Shown here in pieces: positions 3,173 to 46,459 of a stretch of 64,000 nucleotides of DNA. The stretch lies in assembly GCF_041146795.1 (NCBI RefSeq), contig NC_135178.1:7136844-7200843 (forward strand). Direction: 5' to 3'. Made by a program: the position numbers and the translations under genes. Source of the DNA: Maylandia zebra. Lineage: Eukaryota; Chordata; Actinopteri; Cichliformes; Cichlidae. The notes beneath the pieces are model-generated. The model was not told the origin of the DNA. It did not search any database and worked only from the letters and a program-made list of their open reading frames with translations. The first letter of the stretch is position 1, and every line of letters starts with the position of its first letter.

Positions 3173-11364
<8,192 letters not shown>

Positions 11365-17830: not shown

Positions 17831-18397
17831 ATTACCTTTGAAAGAATAAAATAATATACAGTTAAAATGAATAGGCCTACTGTACCCAAGACTAGGTAGG
17901 CTTGCAAACCTTTAGCAGGACTGATATTTTCTCCAGTGTAGTTACTTATAGTTACTGCCTTTGTATATGTGTATTTATATTACTTAGATGTTGGCCCAAC
18001 ATTTATTCTTCAGAAGTAGAAAGGTGGCAGGAATAAATCCTTCTGTTTTCTTGAGCCAAGGCTGGCTGTTATTGCACTCGAGGCAGCCCTATGCTGGAGC
18101 GTTGTGTTTTGACCCAATATTTGTTTTGGCTTTCTACATCAAATAACCCAATACAAGTAGTTAAATAATCGTATTTACAGCAATGTACTTAAACATGTCC
18201 AACAGTCTAATGTCAGCATAAAATAAGTTTACCATGACAGTATGTAAGTTGTCTAAACTGGAATTAGTGTAAAAACACTATGCTTAAAATTGTATTTGCC
18301 AAGCAGTAAATGTGATTTGAATATAATGAATTTGAATAAGGACGGCTTTGTCGAGTCGTCATTGTTTCACATATCTTCATTGGTTCGTGGTGTAGCC

Positions 18398-34260: not shown

Positions 34261-35848
34261 GGTAAAGGCAACCCAGATAGCAAGACGACATTGAATTGAT
34301 GTTGATTTTTCATCCGATCCGTCGTTATGGTTGAAATGCCAATGTTGTAACAACATTGAAATACCGTGGTAAACCGACGGTCTTACTATAGGGACGTTGT
34401 AATGATGTTGATTTACCTTTGTTTTTTTGTCATTGATATTTGATCTTTTTGTAGTCGACCAGGTGACAACAACAACATCGAGAAAACGTCTATTTATAGT
34501 TTACCATCATTCGGCGCCGGTCACCATCAAAAAGCCATCGATTTGTAGTTGAGCGTTAAATTGCATTGCAACTGAGCGGGTATAAAGTACCGGAGAAAGT
34601 AAAAAAATTTTGTTCTTTTGTTATCAATGACTTTGGTCTAGTTCACCAGCTTTAAAAAATCGTGTCGACGTGCAATTTATGTATAGTTGACCGGGAGCAG
34701 CGATCACTTGGACTATTCCGCAGCACCCCTCTCAGTGGTACATCCCTCCAGGTAACCATTGTCTTGTACAGTAGAGCGGGACATTAGATTTACTTTCAGC
34801 GGAATTGACCGGAGAAGGGGCATCAGTTCATGCACTGCACTGGCCTGCACCACGATTAGTATAAGGTAAGAATGAATGAATTTTTTTCTATTCGTTATTT
34901 TGACGGTTGCATTTGAATAACAGTAAAAAACTCGTTAATGTAAAGTTTCGGACAAAATGTTTGAGCCCGAAATTGTGTCTACTTTCATCTTACAATCCGG
35001 CAACAAATAAAGTGCACTGCGAACAAAGTCTATCAACAAAGAAAACATTTCGTTTCATACTTTTCCGTGATATTCCCTTACAAAGCTAGCTTTAACGCTT
35101 CGAGGGTTCCTTTGTTCTTGCCATCGCCTCGGCGCTTGACCGACTTTCGCTCTGTAGTTGCTTTTTAGCATACTACTACAAAAAATTGTAAATCTGTGAT
35201 ATATGATTGATAAACGTAAAGGTAACTGTATAAATGTGTTCAATGACTTTGTTACTTTTAATGATTGGAGAGCACCCGCTTCAATTCGCACTCAATTCAA
35301 ACTTTAGTTGCACGCTCACCTAACTTGCGTTTGCACCTTTTGTCCACACGTAAACTGCGTTTTCGTTAACTGAAGACTGAGATTTTTAAAGACGCCTGCT
35401 GGGGTGGATATTTTTCGAAAACTCCGTTTCAGCATTTAGGTGTGGACGAGGAAAACGGAGAAAACGCAGCAAAGGTGTGCGCCTAGTTTGATGTCACACT
35501 GTACGCCACGTTTTTGTCTCGGTGCCATGAATTCCTACAATGGCAAACTTAGACAAAATACTGTTAATTTTATTATTTTCAGTGTTTAAATGCTTACATA
35601 TACACACGCAGTTACTGTCCCTTCACACACAGGACTCGGTTCAGCTTCTATAAGCCGTCTTTGTATCTAGTTTTCCCTCTTTATTGACATTGTGCCCTAT
35701 TTTTCCTCTTTTTTTCAGATCTGATTTGGTAACTTCCATCAATAAGTAAGAAACTCACGTCGTTAAATAAATTCCTAGTGTTAAACAATTTGCTTATTTG
35801 GCTATTTCCAAATATAGCACTATTTGTTTAATCTGATATACACTGACA

Positions 35849-37848
35849 ATGACATCACGCTGGTCAAGGAGGCGCAAATTACGGAAAATGGTTGAGGCAG
35901 CAGAGTCAGATATACTCAGGCACTTTAAAGAGATGGTTGCTGAAAAACATAACCAAAACGGCAATGCACAAGTTAAAGTTAAGCGACCGCAGGTTGCGGA
36001 AGAGTCTGGTGTGTCCCACTGTTGTCACCCAGGTATAGACAGTCAAGTATTTACCAGTCGCTATGAGCAGATTTCAGAAGTATGTGAGACCTATGTATCA
36101 CCCAACAAGGATAATGACTGTGACCGCAGTTTTCCCCCCCAGCCCACTGACAGCAGGCATCATAATGCCCCGCCCAGCTTCCGGCACCTTTCGCCACTCC
36201 GGCAAAACACACAAAACGACACAGCTTTGCGATCTCCCCAGCATGCAGAGTCAGATGTCGAGGACTTCTTTATAGATGGTATGCTTTTAAAGCTGAATCA
36301 CAATGTCATTGTGCTCTTATCTTCAAAACACCAGTTTATACTCCTGAATGTCATCTTGTTGTGATTTTTTTTTTTTTTTTTTGTGAGGCCACTATTACAA
36401 GGCAAGTTCGAAAATCTTGGAATTTCACATTTTACATGGTATAAATTGTAAATGGCCTATATTTGTACAGCGCTTTAACTAGTCCCTAAGTACCCCAAAG
36501 CGCTTTACACATTCAGTCATCCACCCATTCACACACAATTCACACACTGGTGATGGCAGCTACATATAGAAATATCAAATATATGTGACATGCAAAAACT
36601 AGCAAACACTTTTAGCAGTTAGAACAACTTATACTTGAATGCAGAATGTTACACCATCACTTATGGATCTATTAGTTTTTCCCCTCACTGCTTAAGCCAT
36701 TAATCTTTCTAGAATTGTTCTTTGAAACAGATGCGACCTCACAAAAGATGTTAACGATGCTGTCAGACCTGACCAGAGCAGTTAACGAACTCCGTGAGGA
36801 GGTCAGAGCCATCCGCCATCCCTGCTGCAATGAATCGGTAGATGCTGGGGTACTGCCTCTGGATTTGCCCTTGCACAACATTGAGGAGCTAAACAATGCA
36901 GAGGCAGCTCTTCAATCACAAGAAGCAAATAAGGCAATGGTAAGTATATAAAGGTTATGTACACTTTGTAACTATAAAGTGTAATAGCTGTCAGATGTGA
37001 TTTAAATATTGATTATACACACAAGCACTTGCATGCACATTTAGGACATGAGACACGCTAATTCCATCTCTTAAAATGTGTCTATAGGTGAGACGCTTTG
37101 CCTTGATTGGAGGGACCACACTGGAGGTGCGAGTCCGCCATGTAATGGCTTATGCCATTACAAACGAGCTGGCCTCGGTACTAAACTGGGCAGGGAAAAA
37201 AACCAAGGACCACACAAAGCAAAAAAGGGCATTTAAAGATACAGCGCTGTGCAGATGCATATTTGGTAAGTTTTACTGTTTATTGTAGTTTTATGAGCCT
37301 AAAGTGAACAATAAAGGGATCAATTGATCTGCTGGGTGTGTTTCACATTTCCTATGTCCGGTTTTTGCTATATTACTTTGTCTTTCTTAATAACAAGACT
37401 TTCATGTCCGGTTAATCTGGAGATGGAGTCTTTGGTCTTTGGCTTGTTTAGTCCTCGGGTTGTAGTTTTTACAGCCCGAGGACCCAATGTTTATTTTGTT
37501 TTAAAGGATACACGGCACACCATGCTAAGACTTATCACTTTTTCCGCTCATAGCTCTTTGGGAATCAAATGTGGCAGATTTACGCCTGGTGACTTTCAGG
37601 TTTATCAGCCTAGGAGTTTACATACTTTCTCCCCGCTGAAGACAGTTAACAAGAGCTTATTCATGTGCTCTAATTCACTTTTGTGCGTGTGTGTGTGTAT
37701 TTTTGTCCTAGATGGCCTGACGCAGCAGTTAGGGGCAAACTCTATGTCCGAGTTTGTCTTTGCACAAGCAGTGCAGAAATGGCTCCGATACGCCCCAGAT
37801 CGTTTGGGTGGTGCAGGACGCACATCATGCATCCCCATCCCAGAGTAA
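35849..37848 (+). CDS. DUF4806 domain protein encoded inside a transposon-like element
   Basis: Four exons (35849-36278, 36713-36939, 37088-37265 and 37712-37848) join with correct GT/AG sites and phases to 323 residues. The N-terminus is basic (MTSRWSRRRKLRKM) and is followed by a low-complexity, probably disordered region. Residues about 150-175 (MLTMLSDLTRAVNELREEV) look like a short coiled coil. The C-terminal 100 residues match DUF4806: RFALIGGTTLEVRVRHVM, ITNELASVLNWAGKKTK, FKDTALCRCIF and AVQKWLRYAPDRLGG. The function of DUF4806 is unknown. Such proteins recur in fish and invertebrate genomes, often near transposons. A poly(A) signal AATAAA follows at 37899-37904. With no stop or shift in four exons, it is either young or under selection. 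Confidence 0.8.
36430..36545. repeat. interspersed repeat in intron 1 of the DUF4806 gene
   Basis: Contains TGTACAGCGCTTTAACTAGT and AAAGCGCTTTACACATTCAG, phrases of a common fish repeat. A relative in reverse sense is at 51965-52095. Confidence 0.5.
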
Positions 37849-38035
37849 AAAATTACAAACTTCTGTGAAACATAAATGTAAATAGGAAACTGTCTTTTAA
37901 TAAAGTATTTAGCAAACAAAACTATTGACCTTTTTTTTGTTTAGTTTTTTTTCTGTGTTACATCACATGCAATGCTTTGTTATTTTAGGATATTAATATT
38001 GACATGATACATTGTGAGACATTTTTTTTATCCTT

Positions 38036-39304
38036 CAAGCTCGGGTCCTCTACCAGAGGCCTGGGAGCTTGAGGGTCCTGCGCAGTATCTTAGCTGTTCC
38101 CAGGACTGCGCTCTTCTGGACAGAGATCTCCGATGTTATTCCCGGGATCTGCTGGAGCCACTCGCCTATCTTGGGAGTCACCGCACCTAGTGCTCCGATT
38201 ACCACGGGGACCACCGTTACCTTCACCCTCCACATCCTCTCGAGCTCTTCTCTGAGCCCTTGGTATTTCTCCAGCTTCTCGTGTTCCTTCTTCCTGATAT
38301 TGCTGTCATTCGGAACCGCTACATCGATCACTACGGCCGTCTTCTTCTGTTTGTCTACCACCACTATGTCCGGTTGGTTAGCCACCACCATTTTGTCCGT
38401 CTGTATCTGGAAGTCCCACAGGATCTTAGCTCGGTCATTCTCCACCACCCTTGGGGGCATCTCCCATTTTGACCTCGGGACTTCCAGGTTATACTCGGCA
38501 CAGATGTTCCTGTACACTATGCCGGCCACTTGGTTATGGCGTTCCATGTATGCCTTGCCTGCTAGCATCTTGCACCCTGCTGTTATGTGCTGGATTGTCT
38601 CTGGGGCATTTTTACACATCCTGCACCTGGGGTCTTGCCTGGTGTGATAGACCCCAGCCTCTATGGATCTTGTACTCAGAGCTTGTTCTTGTGCTGCCAT
38701 GATTAGTGCCTCTGTGCTGTCTTTCAGTCCAGCTTTGTCCAGCCACTGGTAGGATTTCTGGATATCAGCCACCTCCTCTATCTGCCGGTGGTACATACCG
38801 TGCAGGGGCCTGTCCTTCCATGATGGTTCCTCGTCTCCCTCCTCTTTCTTGGGTTTCTGCTGCCTGAGGTATTCACTGAGCACTCGGTCAGTTGGGGCCA
38901 TCTTCCCAATGTATTCTTGGATGTTCGTTGTCTCATCCTGGACTATGGTGCTGACACTCTCCAGTCCCCGGCCCCCTTCCTTCCGCTTAGCGTACAGCCT
39001 CAGGGTGCTGGACTTGGGGTGAAACCCTCCATGCATGGTAAGGAGCTTTCTTGTCTTTATGTCAGTGGCTTCTATCTCCTCCTTTGGCCAGCCTATTACC
39101 CCAGCAGGGTACCTGATCACGGGCAGGGTGTACGTGTTGATGGCCCGGATCTTGTTCTTACCATTCAGCTGACTCCTCAGGACTTGCCTGACCCTCTGCA
39201 GGTACTTGGTGGTTGCAGCCTTTCTAGCGGCCTCTTCATGGTTCCCATTTGCCTGCGGGATCCCCAAGTACTTGTAACTGTCCTCTATGTCTGCAATGTT
39301 GCCT

Positions 39305-39309
<5 letters not shown>
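38036..39309 (-). mobile_element. R4/Dong (Rex6)-like LINE, 5'-truncated, open frame
   Basis: Read on the minus strand, the copy runs from about 39309 to 38036 and keeps an uninterrupted frame of about 418 codons to the stop at 38050. It encodes the end of the reverse transcriptase region (YKYLGIPQANGNHEEAARKA), a zinc-binding CRMCKNAPETIQHITAGC motif and a restriction-like endonuclease (PDIVVVD, IDVAVPNDSNIRKKEHEKLE). The 5' end abuts a 74-bp (AT)n tract. Related R4-clade elements are known to insert into simple repeats. It sits inside the DUF4806 element, so it came later. The clade assignment is by domain pattern and not confirmed. Confidence 0.82.

Positions 39310-39382
<73 letters not shown>
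39310..39382. repeat. (AT)n microsatellite at LINE 5' edge
   Basis: About 36 uninterrupted AT units, then ACATACATAC. The LINE frame continues into this tract as alternating Ile and Tyr codons, which is an artefact of the repeat. Confidence 0.95.
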
Positions 39383-39387
<5 letters not shown>

Positions 39388-39736
39388 CATACATGCATGC
39401 AGTAGTTTAGTATTGGTTAAGAAATGTAGATTTCCAGTCATGATTTAATTGTTGTTTTAATAAAAAGCAACTGTGCGAAAGAGGTGGAAAATCAACACCA
39501 TAGCTCAACAGTGTTTCAATATCAGAATCTGACATTGTTTCATTGTCAACAGTATTAGAAAATATAACGTCGAATCAATGTCAGGTTTCAACATTGATTC
39601 AACATCAAAACCTGACGTTTCAACATTAAAAAAGGGTGCAAGAATGACGTTAGGTCAACGTCACACCTCAACGTTGATTCAATGACATCGCCTGATATTG
39701 ACTCAATATCGTTTCAATGTTTCCTTGCTATCTGGG

Positions 39737-40840
39737 AACGCACAGCAGGAAAACGGGGTACAACGTTTTTTTTAATTAGCAAGACATCCTTTCATGGACA
39801 AACATTGTGTTTTTAATTAGATTGTTCTATACTTATTTTAAGGACCATAATCACAGATGAAAACATGCATTGTAGATTTACACTTAAATGTTTATGTAAA
39901 TCTTTTTTATATTTATGTTGAGAGCGCACCTTCCACATCCTGTGGAAGTAACCCCACCATCTAACACGTTCCCGCAGCTGTGTGCATGACTGAAAATCAG
40001 TTTAGTTCAATTTCTTTCGTTCCCTTGAGTTTTCCTAATGAACACAGCAAGCAAGTCCTCAATGCAGGCAAATCCAATCACATCATCATTAATTCTTTGG
40101 CAGTGCAGTATTAGCAGGGAGCGCGCAGACTGTAATACACTGCAGTTAGATTTCTGGTAAAGAAAAACCTGAGACAATTTTTCCATCAGTAATTCATTAA
40201 GCGCACTTATTCTGTTTGATTTCATTTTTATTTTTATATTATCTTTTTTTTTTTTTTTATTTAGCGCAAAGAAAAGTTTAACGCCAACTTGCAGAAAGTA
40301 GCGAAAGTTTAATCCAAGTGGTTCAAATTTCAAAAAATCCAAAAGGCAAAATGCAGGAAAAGAGGGAGGGAAAACTGTGGGAAAGGATTCAGACTAAATA
40401 CACAATATGGAGAATATAAGGTGCAGGTGAATGAAATCTGACAATAAGCAGGGCGGGAAGAGAACAAAGGCAGGAAGTCAAGAAAATGGCAAGGAAACAG
40501 CTCTCAAAATATATCAGAAAGTCACTGAAAGATGGACAAAAAGGAACTCACACAGACAGGCAGGAAGCCACAAAAGACATGAGGAAAAGGAAAATGCTTA
40601 GAAACACAAGAAACTAGGAAGATACACAGCAGCTCATACTTCTAATTTACCTCTCTGTGACATTCTGGTTACAGTAACAATTTAATGCAGAAATATAAAA
40701 TCTCAAAATGTAACTTATTCTATTGAACTTCTTCAATATTGACTATTATTAACTAAAAAGAAATCATCCACTTTAGCTCAGTTAAAATAGAAATATAGCA
40801 AAGTATTCAGATTTATACATATAAATTGACAGTGTTAAAT
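39737..40840. other. intergenic, nothing definite
   Basis: AT-rich with an oligo-T run at 40246-40258 and an A/G-rich stretch (40330-40660) that may be old repeat sequence. No gene is supported. Confidence 0.4.
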
Positions 40841-41908: not shown

Positions 41909-42654
41909 TTTTAGGTCCAGACTCCTGACAGCAGTTAAGCTCCAGTGATACTAGAGGTAGAAGAAGACTGGGCACAAAGTGGAACAATAAAAGCATTTTA
42001 GTGTTGTGGTCTGCACTTTTTCACACATCCACCGCCCTGAGAGAGTTAAACACACACACACACGCATGTTCCCTCATTTGCATCCACCTCTCCTCGCTCA
42101 CAAAGCTTGAGTCTTTTAAAAGGATGAACAGGGGACTGTTTCTGCTTGTATCCATGGAGTCTCTACACACAGTGAGACCGGCACTCTGGGCTTAACAGCT
42201 GCATGGGCGGAGATGTCAGTATTGAAAAAAAAAAAGCTGGCTTTATTGTTTCCCGCCACAGACTGGAACCCAACACCATTTGCACTTACAGTAACTGACT
42301 TATAAAGACAGATACACCGAGATTTCATTTTGGTACCACAGAGGAAGGATAGAAGTTTAAAATAACAAAATTCAAATAAACAGCCAACATCAATAAAAGA
42401 TAAGTTCTATCATCTGTTCATTTCTGGTGTATAGTTACATTACAGACACTACTACACTCAATCAAAAGCAATGTGGAGTCTCTGTAGCTCAATCTGCCAC
42501 ATGAATGACTGATTCCTTAAAGCCTCTGTAATTAGTATTTTATAAAAGATCTTTTCCTACTGGCTACTTTCAGCTGCTACTTGTCATACCTCAGCTTTAG
42601 GTTTGAGTTCATTCATTTGCTAATGAATACCAGAACACACAACAATGATACCTG
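41909..42654. other. intergenic, nothing definite
   Basis: Includes a short (AC)n run near 42049-42062. No coding signal is supported upstream of the C22orf15-like gene, so its promoter is presumably here. Confidence 0.4.
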
Positions 42655-44252
42655 TTCAGAGACTTCATCATTTCTTCACTACCAGACACACTGGACCCAC
42701 TACAGTTCGCTTACCGTCCAAATCGTTCCACAGACGATGCCATCTCTCATCTCCTCCACACATCACTCACTCACTTGGACACTAGAAGGGGGAATTATGT
42801 TAAAATGCTCTTCATAGACTACAGCTCTGCATTTAATACCATAATTCCCTCCACACTCACCACCAAGCTGGAGCATCTGGGACTCAGCTCATTTATGTGT
42901 CAGTGGATCTCCAACTTCCTAACTGGCAGACCACAGGCAGTAAGGATGGGCGGACATGTCTCAGCCTCCACCACTCTCAGCACTGGAGCCCCCCAGGGGT
43001 GTGTTCTGAGCCCCCTGCTGTACTCTCTGTACACATATGACTGCGTGGCCACTACCAGCTCCACCACCATCATCAAGTTTGCTGACGACACCGTCGTGGT
43101 GGGCCTGATCTCTGATAACAACGAGACGGCCTACCTGAAGGAGATTAGGAATCTGGAGAACTGGTGCCAGAGGAACAACCTCCTTCTAAACGTCAGTAAG
43201 ACAAAGGAGCTGATAGTGGACTTCAGCACTAAGCAGGAGAGGAACTACCAGACCCCCGTCATCAACGAGTGCCCAGTGGAGAGAGTGGACAGCTTCAAAT
43301 ACCTCGGAGTTCACATCACGCAGGACCTGTCATGGTCCTGTCACATCAACTCCGTGGTGAAAAAGGCCCGACAGCGTCTCTACCACCTCAGACGCTTGAG
43401 AGACTTCCAACTGCCCTCCAAGGTGCTCAGGAACTTTTACTCGTGCACCATAGAGAGCATCCTGGCGGGAAACATCTTAACCTGGTTCGGGAACAGCACC
43501 ATGCAGGACAGACGAGCTCTACAGAGGGTTGTGCGGTCAGCTGAGCGCACCATCCGCTCCGAGCTCCCTGACCTGCACTCAATCTACAGCAGGCGGTGCC
43601 GGACCAAGGCCAGGAAGATCGTGAAGGACCTCAGCCATCCCAACAATGGACTGTTCTCTCTGTTGAGGTCAGGAAAGCGATTCCGCTCCCTGAAGACCAA
43701 CACAGAGAGACTGAGGAGGAGCTTCTTCCCGCAGGCGATACGGTCTCTCAATCACACCACCACACAGTACTGACCCACACATGCAGTTCTTACACACACA
43801 CTGGACTTTCTGGACTTTGTTTTTGCACAACACTGGTCACTATATTCTTCATTTCCAGTTAATACTTGTACAGCTGCTGTTATTGTGTATATATTTATTT
43901 ATATTTAGATTTCTTCATACATTCTTATATAGTTCTATATTGTGTATTTTGTTGTACAGTTATTTTATTTTCAACTTTAATTTATATATTTTATCTTATT
44001 CTTCCCAGTTAAATTTACCCTTCATTCTAATTTGTGTTGTACAGTTATTTCATTTTTAACCTTAATTTATATTTTATTCCTTCCTAGTTAAATTTACCCT
44101 TTTTAATTTTTCATATTTATTTCCTTTCTTATTCATAGCCTTTTCCTTTTTTGTTTTCTTTAGGTCACGAGCAGTTGTCCAAGCATTTCACTACATATCG
44201 TACTGTGTATGACTGTGTACGTGACAAATAAAATTTGAATTTGAATTTGTTC
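42655..44252 (+). mobile_element. L2-clade LINE, 5'-truncated
   Basis: A frame open from about 42657 to the stop at 43773 encodes reverse transcriptase motifs: [53 protein letters not shown] and [15 protein letters not shown], then the C-terminal region typical of L2. A 480-bp 3' UTR ends in tandem TTTGAA units at 44228-44252, the usual L2 tail. The endonuclease half is missing. The open frame and clean tail suggest a recent insertion. Confidence 0.88.
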
Positions 44253-44319: not shown

Positions 44320-46382
44320 GCTGTAGTATAAGAGACTGCAGAACCAGACTCACCTGGATTGATTACAAGAAGGCCTATGACTCAATGCTCCACACCTGGA
44401 TCCTGGAATGCCTAGAACTATATAAGATCAACAGGACCCTAAGAGCCTTCATCAGGAACTCAATGGGGATGTGGCGGACAACACTGGAGGCCAAACTCAA
44501 GCCCATAGCACAAGTCACCATCAAGTGCGGGATCTACCAAGAAGATGCTCTGTCCCCACTGCTGTTCTGCATAGGCCTGAACCCCCTCAGTGAGATCATT
44601 AACAAGACTGGCTACGGATACCGACTACAGAACGGAGCAGTTGTCAGCCACCTCCTGTACATGGATGACATCAAGCTGTATGCCAAGAGTGAATGAGACA
44701 TCGATTCATTGATCCACACTACCAGGCTATACAGCAATGACATCGGGATGTCATTCGGGCTGGAGAAGTGTAGTCGGATGGTAACAAAGAGAGGGAAGGT
44801 AGTCAGAACTGAGGGGATCGAGCTACCAGAAGGCAACATTGCAGACATAGAGGACAGTTACAAGTACCTGGGGATCCCGCAGGCGAATGGGAACCATGAA
44901 GAGGCCGCTAGGAAAGCTGCAACCACCAAGTACCTGCAGAGGGTCAGGCAAGTCCTGAGGAGTCAGCTGAATGGTAAGAACAAGATCTGGGCTACCCCTG
45001 CTGGGGTAATAGGCTGGCCAAAGGAGGAGATAGAAGCCACTGACATCAAGAAAAGAAAGCTCCTTACCATGCATGGAGGGTTTCACCCCAAGTCCAGCAC
45101 CCTGAGGCTGTACGCTAAGCGGAAGGAAGGGGGCCGGGGACTGGTGAGTGTCAGCACCACAGTCCAGGATGAGACAAGGAACATCCACGAATACATCACA
45201 AAGATGGCCCCAACTGACCGAGTGCTCAGTGAACACCTCGGGCAGCAGAAACCCAAGAAAGTGGAGGAAGGCGAGGAACCATCATGGAAGGACAGGCCCC
45301 TGCACGGTATGTACCACCGGCAGATAGAGGAGGTGGCTGATAACCAGAAATCCTACCAGTGGCTGGACAAAGCTGGACTGAAAGACAGCACAGAGGCACT
45401 AATCATGGCAGCACAAGAACAAGCTCTGAGTACAAGATCCATAGAGGCTGGGGTCTATCACACCAGGCAAGACCCCAGGTGCAGGATGTGTAAAGATGCT
45501 CCAGAGACAATCCAGCACATAACAGCAGGGTGCAAGATGCTAGCAGGCAAGGCATACATGGAACGCCATAACCAAGTGGCCGGCATAGTGTACCGCAGCG
45601 GTCCCCAACCCCCGGGCCTCGGACCAGTACCGGTCTGTGAGTCGTTTGGTACCGGGCCGCAAGAGTTGAGGCTCAGGTGTGAAATGTATGGTTTTCAGGG
45701 TTTTTATCGGTTTTCAGCGTTATTTTGTTATCGTTTTTATCGTTTCATTCCTGGGTCTTTTCACGTGTGTTATGAATAAATCTTCTTTTTTCGGTACCGG
45801 TACTAGTTTCATTTTGTTGTATTTATCCGCGACACCTTAAAGGCCGATCCGTGAAAATATTGTCGGGCATAAACCGGTCCATGGCGCAAAAAAGGTTGGG
45901 GACCGCTGGTGTACAGGAACATCTGTGCCGAGTATAACCTGGACGTCCGGGGTCAAAATGGGAGATGCCCCCAAGGGTGGTGGAGAATGACCGAGCTAAG
46001 ATCCTGTGGGACTTCCAGATACAGACGGACAAAATGGTGGTGGCTAACCAACCGGACATAGTGGTGGTAGACAAACAGAAGAAGATGGCCGTAGTGATCG
46101 ATGTAGCGGTTCCGAATGACAGCAACATCAGGAAGAAGGAACACGAGAAGCTGGAGAAATACCAAGGGCTCAGAGAAGAGCTCGAGAAGATGTGGAGGGT
46201 GAAGGTGACAGTGGTCCCCGTGGTAATCGGAGCACTAGGTGCGGCGACTCCCAAGCTAGGCCAGTGGCTCCAGCAGATCCCGGGAACAACATCGGAGATC
46301 TCTGTCCAGAAGAGCGCAGTCCTGGGAACAGCTAAGATACTGCGCAGGACCCTCAAGCTCCCAGGCCTCTGGTAGAGGACCC

Positions 46383-46385
<3 letters not shown>
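44320..46385 (+). mobile_element. R4/Dong (Rex6)-like LINE, second copy, interrupted
   Basis: Starts within the reverse transcriptase (DYKKAYDSMLHTW, LLYMDDIKLYAKSE) and runs to the same 3' end as the minus-strand copy (CTCTGGTAGAGGACCCGAG), followed by (AT)n. Damage: one stop at 44695-44697 just after YAKSE, a loss of about 30 bases near 44990 relative to the other copy, a hAT insertion at 45596-45908 and a one-base shift near 45945. It retains zinc-binding CRMCKDAPETIQHITAGC and the IDVAVPNDSN endonuclease motif. It is therefore older than, or less protected than, the copy at 38036. Confidence 0.85.
45596..45908. mobile_element. hAT-type non-autonomous element inside LINE
   Basis: A 313-bp element with terminal inverted repeats CAGCGGTCCCCAACC and GGTTGGGGACCGCTG. 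It is flanked by GTGTACCG (45588-45595) and GTGTACAG (45909-45916), an 8-bp target duplication with mismatches. The uninterrupted LINE copy shows GTGTACAG at this point, which confirms the insertion site. Confidence 0.9.

Positions 46386-46459
<74 letters not shown>
46386..46459. repeat. (AT)n microsatellite at LINE 3' edge
   Basis: About 37 AT units directly after the LINE 3' terminus, either the original target or part of the element end. Confidence 0.95.

Follow-up and report, generated by a model that had tools for sequence, protein, structure and literature searches.

A recently mobile DNA transposon family with a DUF4806 gene in the genome of Maylandia zebra

The element in the window

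The 64-kb stretch of DNA analysed here (hereafter called the "window") contains one member, about 5.5 kb long, of a recently mobile DNA transposon family of the Maylandia zebra genome. Matching inverted ends 5.5 kb apart had been noticed in an earlier, sequence-only reading, and we located them at 34272-34284 (plus strand) and 39724-39736 (minus strand). The neighbours of the element are a gucd1-like gene on one side and an adenosine-receptor-like gene on the other. The element and its flanks are composed of the following features.

34270..34271: AA to the left of the element, presumed to be one copy of a 2-bp target site duplication, equal to the AA at 39737-39738 (6.7% by chance alone)
34272..34305, plus strand: left terminal inverted repeat, 34 bp, 28/34 identical to the right end
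34340..34358: subterminal palindrome CAATGTTGTAACAACATTG, candidate protein-binding site
34581..34586, plus strand: TATA-like box TATAAAGTACCGGAGAAAG of a putative element promoter, which occurs in locus L041 as well
34863..34870, plus strand: splice-donor-like site of a putative untranslated leader exon
35849..36278, plus strand: exon 1 of the DUF4806 gene
36731..36939, plus strand: exon 2, with coiled-coil-like heptads (by eye) and the start of DUF4806
37088..37265, plus strand: exon 3, with most of the DUF4806 match
37712..37848, plus strand: exon 4, with the stop codon
37899..37904, plus strand: AATAAA polyadenylation-like signal
38040..39308, minus strand: later insertion, a 5'-truncated LINE piece containing an open frame of 418 codons; a related copy lies at 44824-46385
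39309..39391: (AT)n microsatellite bordering the LINE piece
39591..39605: subterminal motif AYRTTGNNNCAAYRT
39694..39710: subterminal palindrome GATATTGACTCAATATC
39703..39736, minus strand: right terminal inverted repeat, 34 bp, 28/34 identical to the left end
39737..39738: AA to the right of the element, presumed second copy of this duplication, pairing with the AA at 34270-34271

The 13 bp of the ends alone are not significant, because shuffled windows contain on average 17.9 exact inverted pairs of 13-mers no more than 10 kb apart. The sequence CCCAGATAGCAAG has no further match in the window at up to two mismatches, and its match count at this threshold was equalled in 39 of 100 shuffles. 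The ends extend to 34-bp inverted repeats with 28 identical positions, which none of 100 shuffles attained (best, 25); the real window also holds inverted pairs of up to 34/34, of which the 25 listed lie within two LINE copies. Moreover, the two subterminal stretches have 56 seven-mers in common, as compared to a mean of 14.5 and a maximum of 50 among 1603 random pairs. The same type of left terminal inverted repeat occurs in L037 and at several single ends, and the right repeat is identical to the right end of copy L026 at 31 of 34 positions.

The DUF4806 gene has the four exons described previously, although its spliced coding sequence of 954 nt, with GT-AG introns throughout, encodes 317 rather than 323 residues. 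Residues 186-272 match Pfam DUF4806 (PF16064) with 34.9 bits, above the curated cut-off of 25, and the protein thus belongs to this family. The view that DUF4806 lacks an assigned function no longer holds, since a paper of 2024 describes it, with reference to Pan et al. 2023, as a BEN DNA-binding subtype (PMC11075544). For the window protein itself, a PDB sequence search gave no BEN match, and no BEN model was among the Pfam matches.

Near the right end, the element is interrupted by the LINE piece and the (AT)n stretch, neither of which appeared in the earlier reading.

Copies in the genome and the condition of their genes

The exact 13-bp end occurs 133 times in the genome, while the reversed-pattern control gave no occurrence. 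The 100 listed of these 133 places include 27 facing pairs, one of them in the window. We fetched all 26 other pairs, as the sequence-only reading had proposed, and read 31 of the 46 listed single ends. All 26 pairs are flanked by exact 2-bp target duplications, with twelve different dinucleotides, and 2 bp is the longest exact flank match in every case (lengths 1-12 tested). They represent 25 independent sites, as L027 and L028 have common flanks. With its 27 pairs, counting the window, and the duplications at the 26 others, the family displays the hallmark of a DNA transposon, namely paired inverted ends with target duplications at several loci. A 7-bp duplication at the window element (5/7) was dropped as a candidate, because the 26 other copies show exactly 2 bp.

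The family has amplified recently. Identities reach 99.56-99.74% in the 3.83 kb class (4 copies), 98.51-99.42% in the 3.3 kb class (7 copies) and 99.44-99.87% in the 3.0 kb class (3 copies), within a sample selected by two exact 13-bp ends and hence biased to young copies. Copies that lie at different sites reach 99.9% identity, which means that they moved recently. By tblastn, all 26 other pairs contain the same DUF4806 gene, whole or in part. More divergent relatives, about 20-30% diverged, also bear pieces of it: L022 and, among the single ends, L013, L057, L059 and L065. Paired elements without DUF4806 may exist, as in L042, where the ends lie ~3 kb apart, one of them has two mismatches, and no DUF4806 match was found.

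In most copies, the DUF4806 gene is broken. A deletion in exon 3 is common to 8 of the 26. An N-terminal exon is present in 18 of the 26 but not in the window copy, and all 18 versions of it contain an in-frame stop (in the frame read). The copies therefore moved without coding for an intact full protein, and the protein may accordingly be unnecessary or supplied in trans. The proposed dN/dS comparison, with the window copy as the reference, gave values below 1 in each of the 26 comparisons (0 to 0.87), which are not independent of one another.

Exon 1 in its window form is unique among the 27 paired copies, and the whole 317-codon frame of the window copy is open. The first part of this exon (approximately residues 1-93) has no match in any of the 26 others, and a segment of its last third has its homologue in an internal DUF4806-gene exon of the relative L022. 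As judged from these alignments, the window gene is open but rearranged, lacking the N-terminal exons of the relatives and having a new start joined to an internal exon. It is not the full gene of the family, because it lacks the N-terminal exon of 18 of the 26 others. The undamaged exons had been taken as an argument for recent movement or selection. The argument for selection is weak for the window copy, because the 418-codon LINE frame inside the element, presumably unselected, is also open, and because 49% of simulated copies of the window coding sequence were still open at 2% divergence (substitution only).

Five of the single ends read (L009, L050, L054, L056 and L062) look like chance 13-mers, with no family sequence behind them. 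End-pattern matches in one bacterial contig (L001) and four related viral contigs (L002-L005) were likewise taken as chance: none of the five has an opposite end, no DUF4806 match was better than E 0.87, and the strongest match to the element covered 22 bp of the end, in L001 (E 0.004). For relatives of the window protein, viral contigs gave one pattern stretch, which was not confirmed, a genome-contig collection gave 21, none confirmed, and a plasmid collection gave none. Strings of the end searched in the literature returned nothing relevant among the matches listed.

Search for a transposase and the subterminal palindromes

The sequence-only reading saw no transposase, and Pfam also recognised none in those parts of the window element that were scanned: the plus-strand frames from 34272 to ~35830, the minus-strand frames at ~34272-35200, and two further open frames of at least 100 codons outside the LINE. 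An open frame of 56 aa that runs inward from the right end had no Pfam match. As a location for a transposase remnant, the first 1.6 kb was rejected, with nothing above the cut-off in the plus-strand frames or in the minus-strand frames up to ~35200 (best, IF3_N, E 0.46), and exon 1 as a transposase exon is weakened by its partial match to the internal exon of L022. Of the 26 other copies, L026 was scanned with Pfam, and its frames of at least 90 codons contain no transposase. Open frames longer than 181 codons are absent from 25 of the 26; the exception is L036, where they lie in nested inserts. L023, L030, L036 and L038 were rejected as autonomous long versions: their alignment to the standard element is interrupted by additional stretches between matching blocks. 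A transposase divided among many small exons could in principle be present. In none of the copies examined did we recognise a transposase belonging to the family, so the elements probably move with a borrowed enzyme.

The palindromes are restricted to the ends. The motif AYRTTGNNNCAAYRT occurs 150 times in the terminal 300 bp of the 27 copies (16.2 kb of ends) and not at all in 86.5 kb of middles. The motif was first defined from the ends, and its recurrence across copies reflects shared ancestry. The window contains four matches, as compared to 0.19 expected, and four were reached in none of 100 shuffles. Four to six palindromes lie near the right end in 24 of the 27 copies, and one lies near the left end in 18; the window copy has only three such sites in its ends. 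For the right-end array, the candidate binding sequence reads RATRTTG-NNN-CAAYATY.

Proteins with related domains suggest how these sites might be used. BANP, which oligomerises and has a coiled coil at its N-terminus, binds to CGCG sites (PMC11472053), and NACC1 selects the palindromic ACATGT (PMC7764960). In Harbinger, the Myb-like protein binds the terminal inverted repeats, and both genes are required in vitro (PMC9179366). We propose that transposition occurs by cut-and-paste, with a transposase supplied in trans, and that the element-borne protein would bind the subterminal palindromes as an oligomer. The bound protein may help the enzyme to find the ends or may regulate the element, a role that would be comparable to that of the Myb-like second protein of Harbinger. 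The family has probably carried a BEN-like gene for a long time, and its product probably binds the palindromes. Overall, we consider it fairly likely that this is a helper-dependent family with 34-bp inverted repeats starting with CCCAGATAGCAAG and a spliced DUF4806 gene of its own, the product of which serves the ends or regulation.

Alternative explanations and known systems

At seven of the 31 single ends read (L041, L044, L048, L052, L053, L063 and L066), a window-type left end is followed by an rva_4 integrase gene (7.8e-80 in L041; pieces of the L041 gene matched at 88-100% in all seven). The left end is identical over 39/39 bp in five loci and 36/36 in L066, and at 87% over 79 bp in L063; the promoter/leader region is present at ~77% in all but L063. 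This integrase-type transposase could be the family's own enzyme, and the DUF4806 elements would then be derivatives, in which DUF4806 replaced it or stayed after its loss. However, the similarity among the seven loci also continues leftward beyond the end. The end is thus embedded in a longer repeat, which we therefore demoted from autonomous partner to a rival. Furthermore, no right end was found at up to 2-3 mismatches in the 3.3-9.2 kb of inward sequence read, and the gene has no match in any of the 26 paired copies. At its right boundary the repeat reads ...CCATAC in three of the four copies compared, and a left junction coincides with GTATGG... in two, with the shared sequence of these two continuing to the left of the junction. 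These sequences resemble the TAYGG..CCRTA ends of IS3EU families in fungi, whose duplications are 6 bp long (PMC12730594). By eye, we saw no such duplication at the compared junctions, and the assignment to IS3EU is tentative. We regard rva_4 as an unlikely enzyme of the family.

Alternatively, a non-autonomous transposon could have captured a functional fish gene, which would now drift as cargo and play no part in transposition. The introns, TATA-like box and leader region of the DUF4806 gene are like those of a host gene, and it is damaged in most copies of a family that nevertheless moved recently. Against this, dN/dS is below 1 in every comparison, and the presence of at least part of the gene in all 26 pairs and in the ~20-30% diverged relatives means that any capture was old. 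The sequence-only reading had left the choice between an accessory factor and a captured host gene. A transposon with a DUF4806 gene and no visible transposase is upheld, and the 26 further pairs, all with 2-bp duplications and some or all of the DUF4806 gene, favour a long-standing transposon gene over a recently captured one. Capture in the distant past is possible; drifting cargo we consider improbable. That the window element is a domesticated, selected gene with a new N-terminus seems very improbable: it alone of the 27 has exon 1 so formed, and its 317-codon frame is fully open, but an unselected copy could stay open by chance.

The 2-bp duplications and CCC...GGG termini distinguish this family from several known superfamilies. 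Tc1/mariner has TA in every copy, whereas the window family has TA in 7 of 26. The duplication of piggyBac and Kolobok is TTAA, in contrast to the varied 2 bp in 26 of 26 here, and IS3EU has TA...TA termini and a 6-bp duplication. The hAT and Zisupton duplication is 8 bp, and EnSpm/CACTA has CAC...GTG termini and a 3-bp duplication (PMC12730594), both unlike the window family. ISL2EU, a group of two-gene transposons found in teleosts, is defined by a DDE transposase and a YqaJ exonuclease (PMC9179366), neither of which turned up in the parts of the window element that were scanned or in the L026 frames of at least 90 codons. PIF/Harbinger (PHIS) is among the closest parallels, as a DNA transposon with inverted repeats, short duplications and a second, DNA-binding protein as part of the system (PMC9179366), to which the DUF4806 protein would be comparable. 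However, its duplication is canonically 3 bp instead of 2 bp (related lineages have 0, 2 or 3 bp; PMC12730594), its DNA-binding protein is Myb/SANT instead of DUF4806/BEN-like, and neither its transposase nor Myb/SANT was found in the same scanned parts and L026 frames.

Several animal lineages have many DUF4806 genes, and no reason for this abundance is known. If such genes travel in palindrome-ended transposons, their copy number, and perhaps their DNA target, would be explained in a testable manner. If our reading is true, then the family is young, with its transposase still to be found, and BEN-type proteins join the DNA-binding partners of eukaryotic DNA transposons. More tentatively, there may be a lineage whose only gene encodes a BEN-type protein dedicated to its own subterminal palindromes, with a borrowed catalytic subunit, and the DUF4806 expansions of zebrafish and Hydra could be its traces; we hold this extension to be possible but doubtful. 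The window protein resembles DUF4806/BEN-domain proteins (BANP, NACC1 and the zebrafish Chr4 Region-2 genes) in the DUF4806 domain and a coiled-coil-like stretch ahead of it. The window gene lies inside a mobile element, whereas the zebrafish and Hydra genes were compared at the level of the genes themselves. Hydra has many DUF4806 copies. The name DNA-2-8_DR denotes a class by duplication length, and the likeness of the window family to such unclassified fish DNA transposons with 2-bp duplications is one of class, as read from the name. DNA-2-8_DR is described as specific to zebrafish Chr4 Region-2, the same region that contains four zebrafish-specific DUF4806 genes (PMC11075544).

Ends of the element and its copies in the host genome

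A pattern search of the window confirmed the two 13-bp inverted ends where the sequence-only reading had placed them, and revealed no additional match in the window with up to two mismatches allowed. Shuffled windows contain a mean of 17.9 such 13-bp inverted pairs by chance, and the 13 bases alone therefore mean little. The left and right ends are identical at 28 of 34 bases, a level reached in none of 100 shuffles, and the stretches behind them have more seven-mers in common than any of 1603 random pairs. A 5′-truncated LINE piece and an (AT)n tract are located near the right end; by subtraction of both, the element is 4113 bp long. The (AT)n tracts adjoin both LINE copies of the window (39309-39391 and 46386-46459), one on the 5′ side and the other on the 3′ side. 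The second LINE copy contains a 313-bp element (window 45596-45908) with the ends CAGCGGTCCCCAACC and the 8-bp flanks GTGTACCG/GTGTACAG, which is hAT-type by its look.

The host genome (962 Mb, 63 contigs; the window is C12:7136844-7200843) contains 133 exact matches to the 13-bp end, and none to the reversed control. The 100 matches listed of these 133 include 27 pairs of ends (54 matches) that face each other at distances of 2.4-8.4 kb, the window's own pair being one. Other loci with both ends, which the sequence-only reading had proposed to look for, thus exist, and all 26 were fetched. Every one of them has the longer ends (28-31 of 34 bases alike, left vs right), an exact 2-bp target duplication (TA in seven, AA in four, and ten dinucleotides among the remaining 15) and a match to the DUF4806 protein, which is limited to exon 4 in the copy L014 and to a distant match in L022. 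Two copies on contig C6, L027 and L028, separated by about 36 kb, are the same insertion with shared flanks, apparently through duplication of one insertion together with its surroundings. Since they are the only ones among the 26 fetched copies with common flanks, these 26 represent 25 independent sites.

The copies fall into size classes of high internal identity: four 3.83-kb copies on four contigs (99.56-99.74%), three 3.0-kb copies (99.44-99.87%) and seven 3.3-kb copies (98.51-99.42%). The window copy and L037, mutually 91-95% alike in aligned blocks, stand apart as a subgroup: their left ends are of another type, with about 70% identity to the main one across the first 230 bp. The older relative L022 is 71-81% identical to L026, another of the paired copies, but its first 309 bp are at 93%. 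DUF4806 pieces are present in older relatives as well, namely L022 and the single ends (listed matches lacking a facing partner) L013, L057, L059, and L065. The family is mobile, generates 2-bp duplications, carries the DUF4806 gene, spread recently, and has palindromes specific to its ends.

Structure and decay of the DUF4806 gene

The four exons of the window gene join in frame, as previously read, while the product has 317 residues and not 323. The DUF4806 domain spans residues 186-272, and exon 2 contains leucine/valine/isoleucine heptads by eye. A WPPY-containing N-terminal exon is present in 18 of the 26 other paired copies; in the frame read, all 18 have an in-frame stop, at the same place in 17 and elsewhere in L015. 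Two linker exons are also kept in 17 of these 18, and L022 keeps the second one. None of these three exons was found in the window copy, and the window gene is therefore without them, and starts with a 5′ part of its own. Window exon 1 and an internal exon of L022 agree in their splice donor context, and the L022 exon matches the window exon within the latter's last third, at 50% across 38 aa (E 0.001).

Across the copies, exons 2-4 are better kept than the N-terminal exons. The dN/dS calculation suggested earlier yielded values of 0 to 0.87 for exons 2-4 against the window copy, below 1 in 26 of 26, in comparisons with shared ancestry, few changes, and alignment to the window frame only. Most of the copies seen carry a broken gene, and eight (L016, L020, L024, L025, L033, L034, L035, and L038) have a large exon-3 deletion in common. 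The low dN/dS values, together with the stops and the exon-3 deletions, indicate that constraint probably acted on the gene in the source lineage, and that most copies are now broken.

Subterminal palindromes and the putative helper protein

The palindromic motif AYRTTGNNNCAAYRT, defined on the window element's own ends, occurs four times in the window versus 0.19 expected, with three sites in the element's ends and the fourth at 17988. The terminal 300 bp of the 27 copies contain 150 sites (18 left, 132 right), and the 86.5 kb of middles contain none. The right end bears 4-6 sites in 24 of the 27 copies (three in L030, two in the window copy, one in L022), usually at matching distances of 17, 28, 111, 135, 159, and 194 bp. 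These 150 sites are one ancestral arrangement repeated by copying, rather than 150 independent events.

DUF4806 has been called a BEN DNA-binding subtype, with 2023 work cited for it (PMC11075544), and the BEN protein BANP, which also has a coiled coil, oligomerises and binds a CGCG site (PMC11472053). Zebrafish Chr4 Region-2 has four zebrafish-specific DUF4806 genes (PMC11075544), and DNA-2-8_DR is among its specific repeats. Two Hydra species have 69 and 54 DUF4806 copies, tabulated with transposase domains (PMC7642931), and DUF4806 is among the domains enriched in beetle species-specific genes (PMC13270666).

We propose that the DUF4806 protein binds the subterminal palindromes and serves as a helper, in a role that would resemble that of the Myb-like protein of Harbinger (PMC9179366). 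What weighs most against this proposal is the successful spread of copies whose gene is broken, and hence the protein would either act in trans or be dispensable. In the openly accessible papers searched, none was found to describe a transposon that encodes a protein of the DUF4806 or BEN type; the family may already be in Repbase, without a name.

Source of the transposase and the rva_4 repeat

The absence of a visible transposase, already noted from the sequence, holds in the paired copies: 25 of the 26 have no open frame longer than 181 codons, and a Pfam scan of frames of at least 90 codons in L026, the one copy scanned among the 26, gave nothing above the cut-off. A transposase gene of many small exons could nevertheless be present in them. 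The exception, L036, has longer frames, which lie where extra sequence breaks its alignment to L026. This copy is a standard element enlarged by extra stretches (oriented coordinates 95-1567 and 3562-5174), in which inspection by eye alone suggests a piggyBac-type transposase as well as a frame resembling reverse transcriptase. We propose that a transposase supplied in trans moves the DUF4806 elements.

The single ends include one candidate enzyme. Among the 46 listed, 31 were read 1.5 to 9.2 kb inward, and in seven of the 31, an rva_4-type integrase gene lies behind a window-type left end, with the promoter/leader region also present in six of these. They belong to a dispersed repeat (L041:201-3409, and also L044, L048, L052, L053, L063, and L066), with the left end CCCAGATAGCAAG upstream of the integrase gene. 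The sequence left of the end is likewise common to these loci, over at least 100 bp in six and over 59 bp in L066, where it resumes after an insert, and the repeat extends 1.5-2.4 kb left of the end in all five loci read there. Since the shared sequence continues past the end, the end is internal in these loci. As the simplest account, another transposon may have acquired part of a DUF4806-type element, namely its left end and promoter, which would now stand before the transposase gene of that transposon, in an apparent promoter capture. The rva_4 integrase is matched by none of the 26 paired copies, and the mismatch of termini speaks against this enzyme moving the DUF4806 elements.

The L066 insert (joined coordinates 1950-2340) starts with GGGGCAGCACGGTGGCACAGTGGTTAGCACTG, which we take to resemble a tRNA-type SINE. 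The window itself contains an open Tc1/Sleeping Beauty-type transposase frame of 341 codons with HTH and DDE_3 domains (1643-2665), and a reverse transcriptase ORF (42649-43770). The latter is matched by ALKBH8_N of Pfam too, which probably reflects the model itself.
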